Below are positions 12,811 to 25,502 of a stretch of 51,880 nucleotides of DNA, one piece after another. The DNA is from Myxacorys californica WJT36-NPBG1 (GTDB lineage: Bacteria; Cyanobacteriota; Cyanobacteriia; Leptolyngbyales; Leptolyngbyaceae): the NCBI GenBank assembly GCA_019359315.1, contig JAHHHO010000039.1, positions 1 through 51,880 of the forward strand, given 5' to 3'. A program made the translations under genes and the position numbers. The stretch's first letter is position 1, and each line of letters starts with the position of its first letter. The notes beneath the pieces were generated by a model. It saw only the letters and a program-made list of their open reading frames with translations, had not been told where the DNA came from and ran no database searches.

Positions 12811-12971
12811 AATTAGGACTTACGCAAATCATTGCAGATGTTACAGTGCAGCCGTAGGTCTTTACAAACAGAGTTCCTGGCGTAACGAACCTTGCTTCTG
12901 CGATTGAGTCTAGGTTCGTGTCGTTTAAGGTCAGTATCTTGATGTCACCCAGTGCGTAAGTCGTGGGAATT
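12811..12971. mobile_element. Short inverted-repeat (MITE-like) element A
   Basis: The left end AATTAGGACTTACGCA and the right end (reverse complement AATTCCCACGACTTACGCA) share an AATT border and a 10-bp GACTTACGCA core in inverted orientation, about 160 bp apart. No transposase is encoded between. A second element with the same terminal motif lies at 49974-50134. It sits directly upstream of the immunity-like gene. Internal sequence differs between the two copies, so they are related mainly by their ends. Confidence 0.45.
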
Positions 12972-17847: not shown

Positions 17848-18048
17848 GTTAGTTAGAGCAGATAAATGATTATGAAAGAGCAAATTTTAGAAAATAATCT
17901 TCAACAGCTATGAATTATGATTAGCAACTGAAAAATTTAGAATCACAGTAAATTTAGAAATTCAGCGCATTCACAACACAGCTATTCACCAACAGCATAA
18001 CGGCTGTTGTGAGCCGTGGCGAGTCAAACAGAACAAAGCGCTGGTCTT

Positions 18049-18570
18049 TTAACTGCCTGCTTCAATGTCTGATTGTGCCACTTTAATTTCCCATTGCCAC
18101 AATTGTCCATCTTCAGGATCAACAATCTCCGCTACTCTCATCATTCCGCTTTTTTCTAATACTGTGGTGGATGCACTCGGCTCTGCCAACGTATGGGCAC
18201 ACACCTTGTCAACCAAGGCTGAAGCAGCTGCAATTTCGATTAATTGGCGCGCTGCAGAAGTTGCAAACCCTCGGCCTTGATAGGCGGGTGCAACCGAGTA
18301 ACCAATCTCAACAACACGACTAGGATCAGGAACTGATTTGAATCCGCCAAGACCGACCAACGCTTTGTCGTTTGGAAAAATAAATAGATAGGGCAACCAC
18401 GGATTCCAAATTTGTGACGATCGCAGCAGGTTCAGCGAGTATTGAAGTGCTCCTTCAAACGGCAAGTAGCCATCAACGACTTGAAGTCCAAACGCTGCAC
18501 GAAAAGCATCTGCGCCTTGAATCAGGGCTTCAAGGTGTTCAACAGAGCAAGGAACCAGTTCTATATCCAT
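18049..18570 (-). CDS. GNAT family N-acetyltransferase (RimJ/RimL-like)
   Basis: Acetyl-CoA-dependent acetyltransferase fold. The acetyl-CoA-binding core is V-V-E-I-G-Y-S-V-A-P-A-Y-Q-G-R-G-F-A-T (86-104), with the Q/R-x-x-G-x-G/A motif (Q-G-R-G-F-A). A strand and helix ending V-L-E-K-S-G-M follow, typical of the RimJ/RimL branch. Length (173) fits. Substrate unknown. It lies alone between DUF1824 and the tRNA gene, on the same strand as both. Confidence 0.87.
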   Translation of the reverse strand: MDIELVPCSVEHLEALIQGADAFRAAFGLQVVDGYLPFEGALQYSLNLLRSSQIWNPWLPYLFIFPNDKALVGLGGFKSVPDPSRVVEIGYSVAPAYQGRGFATSAARQLIEIAAASALVDKVCAHTLAEPSASTTVLEKSGMMRVAEIVDPEDGQLWQWEIKVAQSDIEAGS

Positions 18571-18754
18571 GATTAAAACTTCTCACTTGATTGGTTTTAA
18601 GTGCTCGATAGATACTGATTCTCCTGAAGGCAGTAGACAAGCTCAGTTGTCTAGGCTGCGGTTCCGTATGCCGCCGAAGGGCGGTTCCTAGCAATCATCA
18701 CTGTCAGGAACCACTACTTTATTTGTTGGCACTGTAATTTACTAGCACTGTAAA

Positions 18755-18838
18755 CGGAGAGGGTGGGATTCGAACCCACGGACCTTTTGGGTCATTCGAT
18801 TTCAAGTCGAACGCTATCGACCACTCTGCCACCTCTCC
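18755..18838 (-). tRNA. tRNA-Ser (anticodon UGA)
   Basis: Read on the minus strand: 7-bp acceptor stem GGAGAGG (18838-18832) with CCTCTCC (18762-18756), discriminator G, anticodon loop CTTGAAA with TGA at 18804-18802, a long class II variable arm, and a T-loop GTTCGAATC. CCA is not encoded. UGA reads UCN serine codons. Confidence 0.95.
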
Positions 18839-18930
18839 AGGAGACAAATCTTATATTAGCTCAGTTGGGCAAAAAGGAGAACGTTTAGCGCTGAAAGTGC
18901 TGATGTGGGATTGCGACGATCGCACAGATA

Positions 18931-19872
18931 TTACTTACGGTTAGCAGCATGTAGCGCTGGATCGTCGATAGCGATCGCATCTGGAGCATTGTAAAGAATT
19001 TGCTCTGAAGCGACTTCAAAATCTCGGTTGAGCCACAGCAGCGACGCTTGCGACACCAGACCATTTTGCAAAGTGACGATCGAAAAATTGCGGAAGCGAT
19101 CGCCGTTTCGCTCCACGATGCGAGGCACGTTTGCGGCATTGAGATAAACGGTTCCTGCCGGATCGATGTGGATGGCTCGTCGCGTTTGATCTTTGGTATG
19201 GCGCAGGGTGTGATGCATATGCCCAAAGGTGGCAAAAGGAATGGTTTTGCCCAGTTGACGGGTTTTGGCGATCGCGTCTGCAAAATCCGGGTCGCCGTGA
19301 TCACCGCCAATGGGTTGCCAATCTTTACCACAGGGGTCTTCCGCCGCATTGCCCAGTCCTAACGGACCGTTGTGACCCATAAACAGCAGCGTATCGGATT
19401 GCGTTTGACTCGCTGCCTCGACGATGCGCTCTACCGACTCTTCAAAACTTTGCACCCCAAAGCGCTCTCGATAGAACCGATTATTTTTCCAGCTTGACCC
19501 GCCCCAACTAAACGGGCGAGTGCCCACCACGCTGAGGTTTAACTCTGGAAAATCGAGCTTTCCAAAGCCTACATGAGCCTCTCCCAGCAGATCTAACTGC
19601 TGCTGCACCCGATCTTCCTTGGCGCGATCGTAGGGACATTTGCTAATTCCCCAGTCGGTGGCGTTGTACCAAGCATCGTGATTGCCCATGATGGCCGCTT
19701 TCGGGATATTGATACCCGCGATTTGCCGCACAATATCAACGGATTCGTTGCCAAAATCTCCGACAAACAGGGCAAGATCGACGCCTAGATATTCTAGAGC
19801 GGCTTCATCCTCCGACTCCCATCGGTCGTGGATGTCTCCGATCGCGGCGATTCTAATTCCCTGACTGGTCAT
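18931..19872 (-). CDS. Calcineurin-like metallophosphoesterase (TIGR04168 type)
   Basis: Binuclear-metal phosphoesterase found in cyanobacteria and plants. Motifs in order: G-D-I-H-D (metal 1), G-D-F-G-N-E (bridging Asp), M-G-N-H-D-A-W (catalytic His), F-M-G-H-N-G, and F-G-H-M-H-H. ATG 19872 with AAGGAT upstream is preferred; a GTG at 19962 would reach back to the previous gene's stop. The product is about 313 residues. The gene upstream on the same strand (310 residues, unknown) ends 93 bases away, and the two may be co-transcribed. Substrate unknown. Confidence 0.88.
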   Translation of the reverse strand: MTSQGIRIAAIGDIHDRWESEDEAALEYLGVDLALFVGDFGNESVDIVRQIAGINIPKAAIMGNHDAWYNATDWGISKCPYDRAKEDRVQQQLDLLGEAHVGFGKLDFPELNLSVVGTRPFSWGGSSWKNNRFYRERFGVQSFEESVERIVEAASQTQSDTLLFMGHNGPLGLGNAAEDPCGKDWQPIGGDHGDPDFADAIAKTRQLGKTIPFATFGHMHHTLRHTKDQTRRAIHIDPAGTVYLNAANVPRIVERNGDRFRNFSIVTLQNGLVSQASLLWLNRDFEVASEQILYNAPDAIAIDDPALHAANRK

Positions 19873-19965
19873 GTGTCTATCCTTTTCATCCAAAAATGAT
19901 TCATTCAAAAATGAGGCGTAACTCCTATCATGCCTTGTCTTCTGGTTTCTGTCTTCTACCACGCG

Positions 19966-20898
19966 TTACTCATTCGTCCAGGTTGACTTCCAGGCAAGGC
20001 GAGCTTGGGCGATCGTATGGTCGCGCTGTTTCTGCCCATACTCCTTTGCCAACGCCTGATATTGTTTCTTGAGATTGCGGAGTTTGTTGCGATCGCTCAT
20101 CACGCTCATGTCATTAAATTCGATTTCGGCAAGCCGCAGGTTAACGGCAATCACATGCACTAGCGTTGCCGGATTTAGCTTTTTAGATTTGGCAGAGTCG
20201 GCGCTGGCATCGACCAGCAAGTTCAGCAGATTTGGAGGACCGGACGATGGCTCATTGCCCTTTGCCTTTGCCGCTGCTTCTAACACCGGAGGCGGCACTT
20301 GTTTGGGCAAAACGTCATGATGTTGCAAGAGTTGGTTCGCCGCTTGAGAGGTGATTTGCAGCGTTCTCGTAATCGAGCGTTCTAGCGTCGATTGCCACTG
20401 ACCGAGCCGCTCGATCGGAGTGAGGGGTTTGCGTTCGGCTGGAGATAAAACCACTTTCGAGAGGAGCGCTTCGAGCTCGTTTTCATCTTCTAGCTCTAAC
20501 TCTTCTATCTCACCCTCGGCTTCGAGGAGTTCAAGGTCATCGTCGCTGAGGGAAAAGTCTAGCTCTTCACTCAGTTCGTCGAGCGATTCGTCATCATGAC
20601 TTTCGGTGGCTTCATCAGCCAGGGTAAGCGTGTCAATTAAGTCGTGTTCTACCTGTTTTGCCAAATCGCGCAGAGCATCTTGAAGCTGTTGGCGACCTCT
20701 GACCGATAGCGTCAAAAACGCTTGGGGATACCCTTCGGTGCAGATGTGGTGACAAGAGAGAATAAACTGCTGACGAGCGACTTTTCCTAAGGTCTGCAAG
20801 TAGTTGGAGTAGGCGGTGCGAAAGTCTTCTCTCAGTGCCTCTACTTTTTGGTCGAGAGCAGCAAGGTTTTGGGTAATTTGTTCAAGCGATCCGACCAT
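19966..20898 (-). CDS. Conserved hypothetical with acidic central linker
   Basis: A 310-residue soluble protein with no catalytic motif I can name. Residues 1-105 are helical (E-Q-I-T-Q-N-L-A-A-L-D-Q-K-V coiled-coil-like, then a compact segment with C-H-H-I-C). Residues about 105-150 are strongly acidic (runs of E, D, L), and the C-terminus is helical and basic (D-R-N-K-L-R-N-L-K-K-Q-Y). ATG 20898 has AGGTAAAG upstream. Placement directly upstream of the metallophosphoesterase hints at a shared task, unproven. Confidence 0.7.
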   Translation of the reverse strand: MVGSLEQITQNLAALDQKVEALREDFRTAYSNYLQTLGKVARQQFILSCHHICTEGYPQAFLTLSVRGRQQLQDALRDLAKQVEHDLIDTLTLADEATESHDDESLDELSEELDFSLSDDDLELLEAEGEIEELELEDENELEALLSKVVLSPAERKPLTPIERLGQWQSTLERSITRTLQITSQAANQLLQHHDVLPKQVPPPVLEAAAKAKGNEPSSGPPNLLNLLVDASADSAKSKKLNPATLVHVIAVNLRLAEIEFNDMSVMSDRNKLRNLKKQYQALAKEYGQKQRDHTIAQARLAWKSTWTNE

Positions 20899-21043
20899 CA
20901 ATCTTTACCTAGACGACAAACCACGTTCTTTTAGGATAAACGAGGGGAGGAGATAGGGGATGAGAGAGACTGAAAAAAGAAGATTTTAAGACTTAAACAC
21001 GGAGGATTGAGAATAGAGGGCGAAAGGTGGAGATTCAAGGGCG

Positions 21044-21331
21044 GTGTGCGAGGCTTTTAGCTCAAAATGTCGGGCTCTTAGCTTGAAGCATCAAGCTTTT
21101 AAGTCAAAGTACGAGGCTTTTAGCTCGAAGTGCCGAGCTTTTAGCCTGAAGTGCCGAGCTTTTAAGTCAAAGTACGAGGCTTTTAGCCCGGAGTGTCGAG
21201 CTTTTAGCTTGAAGCATCAAGCTTTTAAGTCAAAGTACGAGGCTTTTAGCCTGAAGTGCCGAGCTTTTAGCCTGAAGCGTCAAGCTTTTAGCTTGGAGTT
21301 TGCAGATTCAAGCTTGGAGTATCAGCCTTGA
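21044..21331 (+). CDS. Possible heptapeptide-repeat protein encoded by tandem repeats
   Basis: The frame is open through twelve 21-bp units and would encode repeated heptads of the form A-F-(S/K)-(L/S)-K-(C/Y/H)-(R/E/Q). The other two plus frames and all minus frames hit stops inside the unit, so this is the only frame that can be read through. The start would be GTG (21044) with a weak AAGGTGG-like site. The product would be rich in Phe, Lys, Ser and Cys. Translation is unproven; it may simply be a repeat array whose 3n length keeps one frame open. Confidence 0.3.
   Translation: MCEAFSSKCRALSLKHQAFKSKYEAFSSKCRAFSLKCRAFKSKYEAFSPECRAFSLKHQAFKSKYEAFSLKCRAFSLKRQAFSLEFADSSLEYQP
21053..21325. repeat. 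21-bp tandem repeat, 12 units plus one degenerate unit
   Basis: Consensus GCTTTTAGCCTGAAGTGCCG plus A. Units 3, 6 and 9 (21095-21115, 21158-21178, 21221-21241) are identical (GCTTTTAAGTCAAAGTACGA plus G), units 5 and 10 are identical to each other, and units 2 and 8 nearly so. This gives a 63-bp higher-order period and indicates recent amplification of three-unit blocks. There are no spacers, so it is not a CRISPR array. Confidence 0.92.
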
Positions 21332-21400
21332 ATCTGTAATCTTTGGTCATTGTAAGGTCGGAGGGTGGATTCCTAATAAAAGCCTATCCAACAGCCTCTT

Positions 21401-21620
21401 AATCAACGTGAATTCGGGATAAGACGAGATGTGTTAGAGCGAGTTGGGTGGCGTTGCCACAATTCGGGGGACTTTCCCCCGCGCCCCCGCTCGTCAGGAG
21501 ACGGAAGCCGTCCCCCGACACCCCCTCGCTAAGGGAAATGAGAGGGGACGGGTGGAGAAGCGAGGGCGGTTGGAGCGTGGCTTTGGCACTGATGGCTTAA
21601 CCCGAATTGACGTTAATCAG
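21401..21620. mobile_element. GC-rich MITE-like inverted-repeat element
   Basis: The left end AATCAACGTGAATTCGGGAT (21401-21420) and the right end, read as its reverse complement (GATTAACGTCAATTCGGGTT, within 21596-21620), match over about 22 bases with three mismatches. The 175-bp interior is G/C-rich with runs of G and C and internal hairpins (GGGGGACTTTCCCCC). No transposase is encoded. It adjoins the stop codon of the glycosyltransferase gene. Confidence 0.55.
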
Positions 21621-21622
21621 GA

Positions 21623-22786
21623 TTACTCCAATTGACGAATGATTCCGTCCCCTTCAATTTGCAGCCGTCGCCCGCGCCAGTAAGCTTGTCGCCCAAACGC
21701 TCCCATGACCCAAATGACGAAGCTTAATCCATCTCGCAGGGGTAACGTCCAAAACCACCGCACGAGATGAGGACTCTGCATGCTCAATGCCGCGATCGCC
21801 GCTTGACCAAACCGAATTCCAAAGGTGAATCCCGTTAGGACGATTGCCCAACTTGCAAAACCTGAAACCAATAGCAACGGCAAACACAACACCGTGCCAT
21901 AGCAAAAAATCATGGTGTAGTAAATTGCACCCCGATTAAAGCGAATCGTTCTTGCCCATCGCAATTCTCGCTGAAACAGTTGCCCAATGCTTTCGCGCCC
22001 CGTATCCGACTCAAGCACTAAATGAGAAAGTTCTACTTGGTAGCCTGCTTGAGCGGCCCGTTTGCCGAGATTGTAATCAGACCCAATGCGATTAAGTTGC
22101 AGTCCGCCAAATCCTTCGAGTGTAGTTTTGCGAGTTGCGATCGTCACTCCGATCGCAAACTTCAAGCCGCCATCTAGGGCACGAGCAATCAGCGCACTCG
22201 GAATAAAATCGCAGCACCGCCCCAAAGACGCTAATGCTGCCCCTAAAAACTGCGGATTGTGGGCAATGTAAGCGCAGGTGACTACATCGACTTGAGACAG
22301 CGGAGCGGTAACGGTGTGAATGTAGTCTGGATTCACACAAATATCACTATCCGCAAAAATTAAAGTTTCAAATTGCGCCTCTTCGAGTAGATAACTCAAG
22401 GTGCTGTCTTTATGATTGATGCCACGGGGAGCCAAATCGACAAAAACGCGAACGCAATTGGCTCCAAGCTCCGAACGATCGCGGTAGGTTTCTTCCAATT
22501 TACGGAGTGTTGGAATGGCTGGATCAGTCGTGTCAGCGACCCCAAACAATACTTCGTAACGGGGATATTCTTGCTCACAGAGTGATGTCCAGTTCTCTAA
22601 CGCTCCTTCATCTAAGCCGCAAATCGGGACTAAAATCGAAACGGGTTCATCTGGTGTAGCATCATCTGTTGTAGCAATGGTTGGGGCAACAGTTGAGAAG
22701 AACTGCTGAGTAAACCAAGCACACGCGAGATAGAACACAATCGAACCTAGAATCAAAACTCCTAAAACAATTTGAACAGCTAACAT
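21623..22786 (-). CDS. Glycosyltransferase family 2 (ceramide-glucosyltransferase/HpnI-like)
   Basis: Membrane GT-A glycosyltransferase. An N-terminal helix (M-L-A-V-Q-I-V-L-G-V-L-I-L-G) is followed by V-S-I-L-V-P-I-C-G-L-D-E, L-I-F-A-D-S-D-I-C (metal-binding DxD), R-I-G-S-D-Y-N-L-G (catalytic Asp) and Q-R-E-L-R-W (QxxRW). Three or four C-terminal hydrophobic segments follow. This order fits the ceramide glucosyltransferase/HpnI branch. HpnI acts on hopanoid lipids, but no hopanoid genes are nearby. ATG 22786 is preferred over an upstream frame extension that would run into sufS. It follows sufS on the same strand, 55 bases on. Confidence 0.85.
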   Translation of the reverse strand: MLAVQIVLGVLILGSIVFYLACAWFTQQFFSTVAPTIATTDDATPDEPVSILVPICGLDEGALENWTSLCEQEYPRYEVLFGVADTTDPAIPTLRKLEETYRDRSELGANCVRVFVDLAPRGINHKDSTLSYLLEEAQFETLIFADSDICVNPDYIHTVTAPLSQVDVVTCAYIAHNPQFLGAALASLGRCCDFIPSALIARALDGGLKFAIGVTIATRKTTLEGFGGLQLNRIGSDYNLGKRAAQAGYQVELSHLVLESDTGRESIGQLFQRELRWARTIRFNRGAIYYTMIFCYGTVLCLPLLLVSGFASWAIVLTGFTFGIRFGQAAIAALSMQSPHLVRWFWTLPLRDGLSFVIWVMGAFGRQAYWRGRRLQIEGDGIIRQLE

Positions 22787-22841
22787 GCCGAGATCAGATG
22801 AAGGACAGTCTAAAGCACTGGGATAGCTTAGTTTAAGCTTC

Positions 22842-24104
22842 CTACCCAAAAATACTGCCAAAGAAGTCAACCGCATCCTTTAACGACGCAATAAATACGT
22901 CAATCTCTTCGCGAGTGTTGTAGAAATACAAACTTGCCCGTGCGGTCGATTGAGCTTTAAGGTATCGATGCAAAGGCTGTGTGCAGTGATGTCCTGCCCG
23001 AATCGCAACTCCGGCCTGATCCAAGATTGTAGACAAATCGTGGGGATGAACATCGCCTGCGGTAAACGAAGCAAGCGCCGCTCTCCCGCTGCCATCAGCT
23101 TTCGGCTTGGGTCCATACAGGCGAAGCTCTGGAATTGTCGCAAGCTGTCGGAACAGATAATCGGTTAGCTCTTCTTCATAAGCATGAATCCTATCCATGC
23201 CAAGATTGGTTAGATAATCCACTGCTGCACCGAGCGCGATCGCTTCTCCAATGGCAGGCGTACCCGCTTCAAACTTGTGAGGCAAGTCAGCATAGGTAGA
23301 ATGATCAAGGAACACATCGGCAATCATTTCGCCGCCGCCCATAAACGGAGGCATCGATCGCAGCAAATTCAACTTGCCATACAAGAAGCCAATCCCGGTC
23401 GGCGCACACATCTTGTGACCTGATGCCACTAACCAATCGCAATCAATCTCTTGAACATCGATCGGCATGTGCGGCACACTCTGACAGGCATCGATCAGCA
23501 CTCGTGCGCCAACGTTGTGAGCTTCGGCACAAATCTCTTTGACGGGATTAATACAACCCAGCGTGTTGGAGACATGTACCGCTGAAACGAGCTTTGTCTT
23601 ATCCGACAACAGCAACTTGAACTGCTCAAAGTCAAACTCTTCCGTCTCAGTCAATTCAACATGCTTCAGCACTGCGCCTGTCCGACCAGCAATAATTTGC
23701 CACGGAACCAGATTGCTATGATGCTCCATTACCGACAGCACAATTTCATCGCCTTGCTTTAGCGTATTCAACGCCCAAGAGTAAGCAACCAAGTTGATCG
23801 CCTCGCTGGCATTACGGGTATAGACAATCTCCTGACGAGATGCCGCATTCACAAACGCCGCAACCTTGTCGCGAGCGCCTTCATAAGCATCTGTCGCCCG
23901 TGAACTGAGCGTATGCACGCCTCGATGCACATTCGCATTGTCATACCTGTAATAATGACCAATCGCATCTAGCACCGCGATCGGCTTTTGCGAAGTCGCC
24001 GCATTATCAAGATAAACCAGTGGCTTGTCGTGAATCGTCTGATTCAGAATGGGGAAATCAGGTCGAGTCAGAGCAGAGAGCGTTTTTTCCTGGATGATAG
24101 TCAT
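22842..24104 (-). CDS. sufS: Cysteine desulfurase SufS
   Basis: PLP-dependent group II desulfurase supplying sulfur for Fe-S assembly. [13 protein letters not shown] starts the fold. The PLP lysine lies in [14 protein letters not shown] and the catalytic cysteine in [10 protein letters not shown] (about 370). Length (420) is standard. It is the last suf gene in the order sufB, C, D, S, 66 bases after sufD. Sulfur would pass to the SufBCD scaffold; no SufE gene is adjacent. Confidence 0.97.
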
Positions 24105-24170
24105 CGTTCAAGAAGAAATAAAGGATCAATAAACCTGTAGAGATGCCAAACTCCGCGTCTTGGTCGAAGA

Positions 24171-25502
24171 TTATGCACTCTGAATCCGCACCAATTGAGT
24201 TAATGCATTGCGTAGTGACGCCACCGAGATCCGATCGATCACCTCGATCGCAAAGGCATAGGTCAACAACTTCCGCGCTTGGTCTGCCTCAATGCCCCGA
24301 CTCTGCAAATAGAACACTTCATCATCTTCTAACTGGCTCACTGTGGCTCCGTGAGCGCATTTCACATTGTCAGCCGTAATTTCTAGCTGGGGCTTAGTGT
24401 CCACTCGTGCTTTCGGTGACAGCAACAAGTTCCGGCTTAACTGCGCCGCATTCGTCAACTGAGCCGCTTTCGGCACAACCACTCTGCCATTGAATACAGC
24501 ATGAGCGCGATCGCTGACAATCGTCTTATTGACCTGATTCGCAGTTCCATAGGGCTGACTCAGTGCAATCAAGCTGTGAGTATCCCCCAAGCGATCGCCA
24601 TCGACGATCGTCAGTCCGTTTAACTTAGTATCGGTCTGCTCACCCGTCTGATATACCTCTAAATGATGGCGAGACAATTTCCCGCCCAAACTCACCGTCG
24701 TACAGTCATAGCGAGAATCTCGCGCTTGAGAAACAGCCGTCTTGCCAATATGGAACGCGGCAACGCTATCCCTTTGAACTCTAGTATGGCGAACCTCAGC
24801 ATTTTCCCCAAGCCAGATTTCCGTAACTGGATTGGTGAAGTATGCACCCTCAGCCAAGCAGACATACTCTTCGACCAGCGTTACGCTACTGCCCGTCTCT
24901 GCCACAACCAAAGCGCGGGGATGACAAAGTGCTTCTCGCGTCGAGACAAATAGAAGATGAATTGGAGGTGTAATCGCTTGATTCTTCGGAACCCATACGA
25001 TCGCGCCATCGGTAAAGCTCGCGGTATTCAACGCCGTGAAAATTTCCTCACCGCCTGGATGCAATGCTAAATGCTCGTACAGCTTTGGAAACAGTTGCAC
25101 TCCAGCGGCCAAGTTTCCCGCTAACACGCCGTCTGGCAAATCATTAACAGCAGATAAGGCAGGCGCATAAACGCCATCCACAAAAACCAAACGGCTATTA
25201 GTAGATTCAGGTAGTAAAAACGATTCAATCTGAGGAAATCCAATCTCAGACGGCGCACTGTTTTGAAACTGAACTTGCAGCAGCCCCGAGAGATCGGTAA
25301 AGCGCCATTCTTCTTCGCGTGTGCTGGGAATGGCGCGATCGCGAACGAGGGAGAAGGCGCGATCGCGGATCTCCTTCAGCCCAGCCAACTCCGATGGCAA
25401 CTCACTCCGCAAGCTCAACAACCCCAAAAGATAAGCCGCGCGATCGACCTTCGTAGACACGCCCAAATTTCCAACGTCAGATAGGGTAGATTGGATTGTC
25501 AT
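24171..25502 (-). CDS. sufD: Fe-S cluster assembly protein SufD
   Basis: Scaffold partner of SufB in the SufBC2D complex. The C-terminal half has the beta-helix of the SufBD family, with R-H-H-L-E-V-Y-Q-T-G, V-F-N-G-R-V-V-V-P-K-A and T-A-D-N-V-K-C-A-H-G-A-T-V-S-Q-L containing the conserved Cys-His pair, then Y-L-Q-S-R-G-I. The 443-residue length is typical. Its start overlaps the sufC stop by one base, so translation is probably coupled. Confidence 0.96.
   Translation of the reverse strand: MTIQSTLSDVGNLGVSTKVDRAAYLLGLLSLRSELPSELAGLKEIRDRAFSLVRDRAIPSTREEEWRFTDLSGLLQVQFQNSAPSEIGFPQIESFLLPESTNSRLVFVDGVYAPALSAVNDLPDGVLAGNLAAGVQLFPKLYEHLALHPGGEEIFTALNTASFTDGAIVWVPKNQAITPPIHLLFVSTREALCHPRALVVAETGSSVTLVEEYVCLAEGAYFTNPVTEIWLGENAEVRHTRVQRDSVAAFHIGKTAVSQARDSRYDCTTVSLGGKLSRHHLEVYQTGEQTDTKLNGLTIVDGDRLGDTHSLIALSQPYGTANQVNKTIVSDRAHAVFNGRVVVPKAAQLTNAAQLSRNLLLSPKARVDTKPQLEITADNVKCAHGATVSQLEDDEVFYLQSRGIEADQARKLLTYAFAIEVIDRISVASLRNALTQLVRIQSA

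Follow-up and report, generated by a model that had tools for sequence, protein, structure and literature searches.

Minisatellites are tandem arrays whose units measure about 10–60 bp. Cyanobacteria are known to carry shorter repeats built from heptamers (PMC4692102 and PMC4679880), those of Calothrix and Nostoc being named in PMC4692102. A study on prokaryotic satellites attributes unit lengths divisible by three to coding (PMC6749651). BrickBuilt of Porphyromonas gingivalis is described as a 23-bp tandem minisatellite residing inside an inverted-repeat MITE (PMC4596501). A repeat survey of Leptolyngbya-like species deals with units of 1–6 bp, and a term search of it finds no "minisatellite" and no "21 bp" (PMC8619395). 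A literature search that covered titles and the openings of abstracts, with most subscription papers lying outside it, turned up nothing on cyanobacterial intergenic arrays with 21-bp units.

The window, a 51,880-bp contig of Myxacorys californica WJT36-NPBG1, contains an array of tandem 21-bp units that falls within the unit-length definition of a minisatellite (or VNTR). This array is probably an untranslated intergenic minisatellite that belongs to a dispersed family, termed family A, is locked in its spacing, and changes in 21-bp steps. It sits between the 3' end of a glycosyltransferase gene and the 5' end of a gene for a 311-aa protein, both on the minus strand (Table 1). Among nine loci, the best match to the glycosyltransferase, at 81% identity, comes from Myxacorys almedinensis A. 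The same locus was found in no other genome, so no change in unit number was seen at it; in the same-genus genome G001, which has a different gene order there, the alignment breaks off approximately 90 bp before it reaches the array core from the left, and the gene that follows looks, from its translation, like an aspartate carbamoyltransferase. A plasmid collection held no match to the window array or to the array of a second family, family B.

Table 1. Positions of the array, its neighbors, and related features (window coordinates unless a locus is named).
Feature	Position	Strand	Remarks
Inverted-repeat element	12817..12962		10-bp ends; without an array here, carries a family D array elsewhere in the genome
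311-aa gene, function unknown	19966..20901	-	Downstream of the array; number of matching genomes in the family 42/42
Left edge of array	21007..21048		Two degenerate unit-length stretches; from lag-21 trimming and unit print
ORF along array	21044..21331	+	95 aa, GTG start; most likely no gene
Array core	21049..21300		12 units of 21 bp, 63-bp higher-order copy, inner 7-bp rhythm
Right edge of array	21301..21342		Degenerate unit and hairpin arms (21297-21312 with 21327-21342, 88% complementary)
MITE-like element	21397..21622		Right of the array, separate; 27-nt inverted ends, 81% complementary
Glycosyltransferase gene (Glyco_transf_21)	21623..22876	-	Upstream of the array
menC with in-frame 21-bp array	L010:1061-2437 (G028), also L099-L102		Array between two domains

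The preliminary description of this DNA had recognized a 21-bp tandem repeat with a 63-bp higher-order structure, and both levels are real according to Tandem Repeats Finder (TRF) and a print of the units. TRF reports period 21 at 21094-21269 and 21116-21299, period 42 at 21053-21295, period 63 at 21049-21290 (87% matches, 0 indels, score 365), and period 126 at 21049-21290 (score 407). Read in the GCTTTT register, the array has one identical trio (units 3, 6, and 9) and one identical pair (units 5 and 10), just as the description had stated; units 2 and 8, which it had also paired, differ at one base. The lag scan that detects this array returned zero arrays in three local shuffles of 1.24 Mb. 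The array matches itself at 0.66 at lag 21 and at 0.41 at lag 7, against an expectation of 0.26, and its purine pattern has a 7-bp power of 0.54 (P 0.003). Every third heptamer is therefore alike, while adjoining heptamers are unlike, and the raised match at lag 7 allows the 21-bp unit to be read as a trimer of degenerate heptamers. The window family thus resembles the heptanucleotide STRRs in being intergenic, cyanobacterial, and marked by a 7-bp rhythm, if only as a sub-period, and heptamer runs adjoin several family A arrays of genome G032 (as judged by reading) or lie at an orthologous site. It differs from them in that the main period of the window array is 21 rather than 7, and in that its neighboring heptamers are not the same.

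Whether the array is translated was left between two alternatives in the preliminary description, a repeat protein of hypervariable length or a non-coding array. The open reading frame at 21044-21331 on the plus strand is the only one of at least 80 aa along the array, and the observation that a single frame of the six stays open was borne out; however, one open frame is what chance provides, since at least one was present in 98% of 300 column permutations of the array. Variability is 0.28 at third codon positions and 0.26 at the others, so that the synonymous bias between units suggested as a check is absent, by a test that is weak because three menC arrays that are truly in frame (see below) show no third-position bias either. 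The same tests found significant codon-phase bias in none of 25 arrays of the window's genome (lowest P 0.06), and five of the 25 have stops in each of the six frames. When 18 family A arrays were set in one register, six from the window's genome and 12 from others, the best common frame was open in 11 (null mean 12.5, P 0.77), and the frame of the window was open in six and closed in 12. Stop avoidance, a shared frame, and freer third positions were thus all missing from the window array, the last of these by the weak test. Since chance alone would leave a frame open, third positions show no extra freedom, and the 18 arrays have no open frame in common, the window array is read as untranslated and most likely makes no protein.

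That the window array is instead a gene, encoding a length-variable protein built from AFSxKCR-like repeats, is accordingly a very improbable reading, although one frame is open across 95 aa, the third-position test lacks power, and proteins can evidently carry such arrays. The last point comes from the genus g3, in which menC of genome G028 (o-succinylbenzoate synthase, NCBIfam E 1.5e-140) contains an in-frame family A array. The menC frames of seven g3 genomes measure 458, 437, 479, 409, 344, 330, and 358 aa; the array is present in the first four, where it separates the N-terminal domain from the barrel, and absent from those of 330–358 aa. The four inserts fit family A at 12.3 to 14.0 of 21 positions, compared with at most 8.4 for shuffles, and, taken alone, have their best lag at 21, 42, or 63 in all four cases, the general scan at the menC locus having given periods of 21, 14, 21, and 7 for the four genomes. 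As the length of the menC array differs among g3 species, the frame-neutral length variation foreseen for the 21-bp unit does occur, in four of seven g3 genomes, and the repeat-protein alternative applies to the menC of these relatives; for the window itself the non-coding alternative is favored. The menC genes all read their array from the other strand than the one that carries the open frame of the window, and the product of that open frame has no Pfam match at E 0.001. The menC case shows that such arrays exist inside a protein gene too.

Family A comprises six of the 25 arrays compared in the window's genome (the window array, L004, L147, L198, L193, and L088:4892) and is the tightest group among them: a profile comparison linked 14 of its 15 pairs (z above 4). 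Each of the six has the 7-bp purine rhythm (P at most 0.003). A DNA search with the window array retrieved one further array in its own genome (contig C49) and arrays in four of 57 other genomes, all of genus g3; a short array in G001 also fits the family A profile. In G032, a family A array adjoins a SpoIIM-like gene that five other g3 genomes also have. Of these five, two have 7-bp arrays at the site, G028, which has a different left neighbor, shows a weak period of 8, and two have none, so that some relatives carry heptamer repeats where G032 has its 21-bp array. The family A arrays have no common flanks, except for a palindrome of approximately 35 bp next to two of the six. This short dispersed palindrome, around GGAGCTTGCGAAGC, occurs at L004:3528-3562, L088:4837-4871, and L094:14675-14702, and adjoins three arrays, including two from family A.

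Family A is part of a wider population of arrays built on 21-bp units. A lag scan unbiased as to sequence, run over 1,243,246 of the 5,966,494 bases of the window's genome (21%), yielded 40 intergenic arrays, of which 19 have period 21, two have 42, one has 63, one has 20, and none has 22, the rest ranging from 6 to 41; a period of 21, 42, or 63 is thus found in 22 of the 40. A further 33 arrays lie inside ORFs, two of them with period 21, the division between intergenic and in-ORF arrays following an ORF rule rather than annotation. TRF is concordant, giving period 21 in 12 and period 42 in three of 31 arrays with at least four copies. In 400-kb samples of other genomes, G001 had two arrays of period 21 (one in an ORF), G014 had none of period 21 and 14 of period 7, and G032 had six of period 21 (one in an ORF), one of 63, and 31 of period 7; the scan found no array in one 50-kb stretch of E. 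coli. The prevalence of 21 bp in intergenic arrays without a coding signal sets this genome apart from the prokaryotic satellites whose multiple-of-three lengths PMC6749651 attributes to coding.

The members of this population are largely unlike in sequence. Single linkage at z above 4, weak links included, places the 25 arrays in 14 groups, and common descent of all 21-bp arrays was rejected, as only 20 of 300 pairs are linked at this threshold, 14 of them within family A. Relatives of the family B array occur in 11 of 58 genomes, a count that includes its own genome and three in which the only matches have E above 1e-4, whereas the family D array was found in its own genome only (1 of 58). 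No 7-bp purine rhythm is present in 12 of the 17 arrays outside family A (P above 0.2), a further difference from the heptanucleotide STRRs, and heptamers therefore provide no general explanation of the number 21.

What the arrays keep is their spacing. Of the 224 unit spacings in 23 arrays of the window's genome, 221 are exactly 21, in a set that was found by constant lag, which is biased against indels; adjacent units there are nevertheless unlike at about 8 of 21 positions. Arrays found instead by BLAST gave spacings of 21 in 176 of 176 cases for family A (12 arrays), 80 of 82 for family B (eight arrays), and 38 of 43 for family D (three arrays). With the window array and four other constant-lag arrays added, family A reaches 231 of 231, compared with 53 of 58 for family D after the addition of L129 (15 of 15) (P 2.8e-4). 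This constancy in family A contrasts with adjacent units that, in the arrays of the window's genome, are unlike at 7–11 of 21 positions. The 21-bp spacing is strict in family A, nearly strict in family B, and looser in the element-borne family D. Substitutions and indels stand at 619:2 in the arrays, 32:5 in the arms of family D, and 91:11 when two other repeats are pooled with these arms (P 1.7e-8), a rough comparison in which the counts are lower bounds, the reference sets are small, and the 619 omits L136, from which one of the two indels comes.

Spacing that is far stricter than sequence would be expected if the array were a platform on which a nucleoid or other DNA-binding protein found its sites in helical phase, with selection holding the 21-bp interval, and dyad symmetry in the units points the same way: in column permutations, P is 0.013 or less in four of the six family A arrays, 0.020 in the fifth, and 0.090 in the window array, and P is 0.000 in the family B array. 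Yet the unit sequences are unlike between families, and the family A dyad, whose consensus pairs at 0.68, shows no covariation across 188 distinct units; a selected hairpin was rejected on the same ground. Nor is the 10.5-bp component elevated in the nucleotide profiles of the units, where, over 28 arrays, the power at k=2 is 0.076 against an even share of 0.1, and the AA/TT and WW dinucleotide profiles, at 0.127 and 0.144, are slightly above the even share at k=2 and no higher than at k=4 or k=6. Curvature or a 10.5-bp sub-phase was rejected on these profiles, and, given the nucleotide profiles, little besides the number 21 points to the helix. A binding platform of this kind is therefore considered unlikely; it is possible that phased sites are selected.

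At the RNA level, the array could also serve as a spacer or attenuator rich in hairpins, since both genes that flank it run in the same direction on the minus strand, and its predicted folding beats that of shuffled sequences, with a z of -4.21 for the minus strand and -2.50 for the plus strand. The shuffles break the repeats, tandem dyads inflate such z values and can produce them in any case, and the lack of covariation applies here too. The arrays occupy nine tandem, six divergent, and three convergent gaps, compared with 158, 86, and 49 among all gaps, a count of 18 of the 22 arrays that leaves out four at stretch ends, and this distribution is without orientation bias. A role in RNA between co-directional genes is thus quite unlikely.

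The family D array is carried in an inverted-repeat element with 12-bp ends (P 0.003), a minisatellite inside an inverted-repeat element like BrickBuilt (PMC4596501). Copies of the element lie at L221-L224; the array is inside it in other places of the genome, and L223 is without a recognizable left end. By analogy with family D, the window array might be the inner part of a MITE, and a 10-bp inverted repeat, AGATTCAAGG, does flank its core (from 21031 and to 21335). This repeat lies at the edges of the array itself, however, and outside the array, up to 120 bp on each side, no inverted repeat rises above chance (best score 6, P 0.975), so that MITE ends were rejected for the window array, which in this respect is unlike BrickBuilt. 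The left flank of the window array is single-copy in the genome, and, apart from the palindrome beside two of the six, the flanks of family A are not common to its members. Residence within a MITE is the least credible of the alternatives and is considered extremely improbable.

The preferred reading of the window array is thus that of a family A minisatellite whose 21-bp unit would represent a trimer of degenerate heptamers, set within the larger 21-bp population. The presence of whole 21-, 42-, and 63-bp copies suggests that the array lengthens and shortens by these amounts, probably through slippage or unequal exchange. Base changes would accumulate freely in such an array, and none of the family A arrays seen has a length change that departs from the 21-bp step. 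The spacing may be retained because 21 bp corresponds both to two turns of the helix and to three heptamers. A period that prevails without a coding signal, and a spacing that is kept while the letters drift, make it possible to test whether the unit length of bacterial satellites is set by DNA geometry or by a copying mechanism. A wider proposal, that some cyanobacterial genomes keep untranslated, sequence-unrelated satellites locked to 21 bp, with selection acting on spacing and not on sequence, is advanced only tentatively and is rather doubtful. If it were true, there would be a class of satellites set by DNA geometry, namely by two helical turns, and such satellites could live inside genes like menC because 21 bp keeps the reading frame.

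Several other features were noted alongside the array. The body of the MITE-like element to its right (21406-21617) has an 83% copy elsewhere in the same-genus genome G001. Flanking sequence is common (78% over 81 bp) to L097:16937-17098 and L136:5779-5989, both of which are arrays of period 41. An Rfam search over 18000-25000 of the window gave three matches at E up to 1, of which only a tRNA passed its gathering score; this tRNA gene lies at 18755-18838 on the minus strand, and the opposite strand matches a plastid 3' UTR family below the gathering score.
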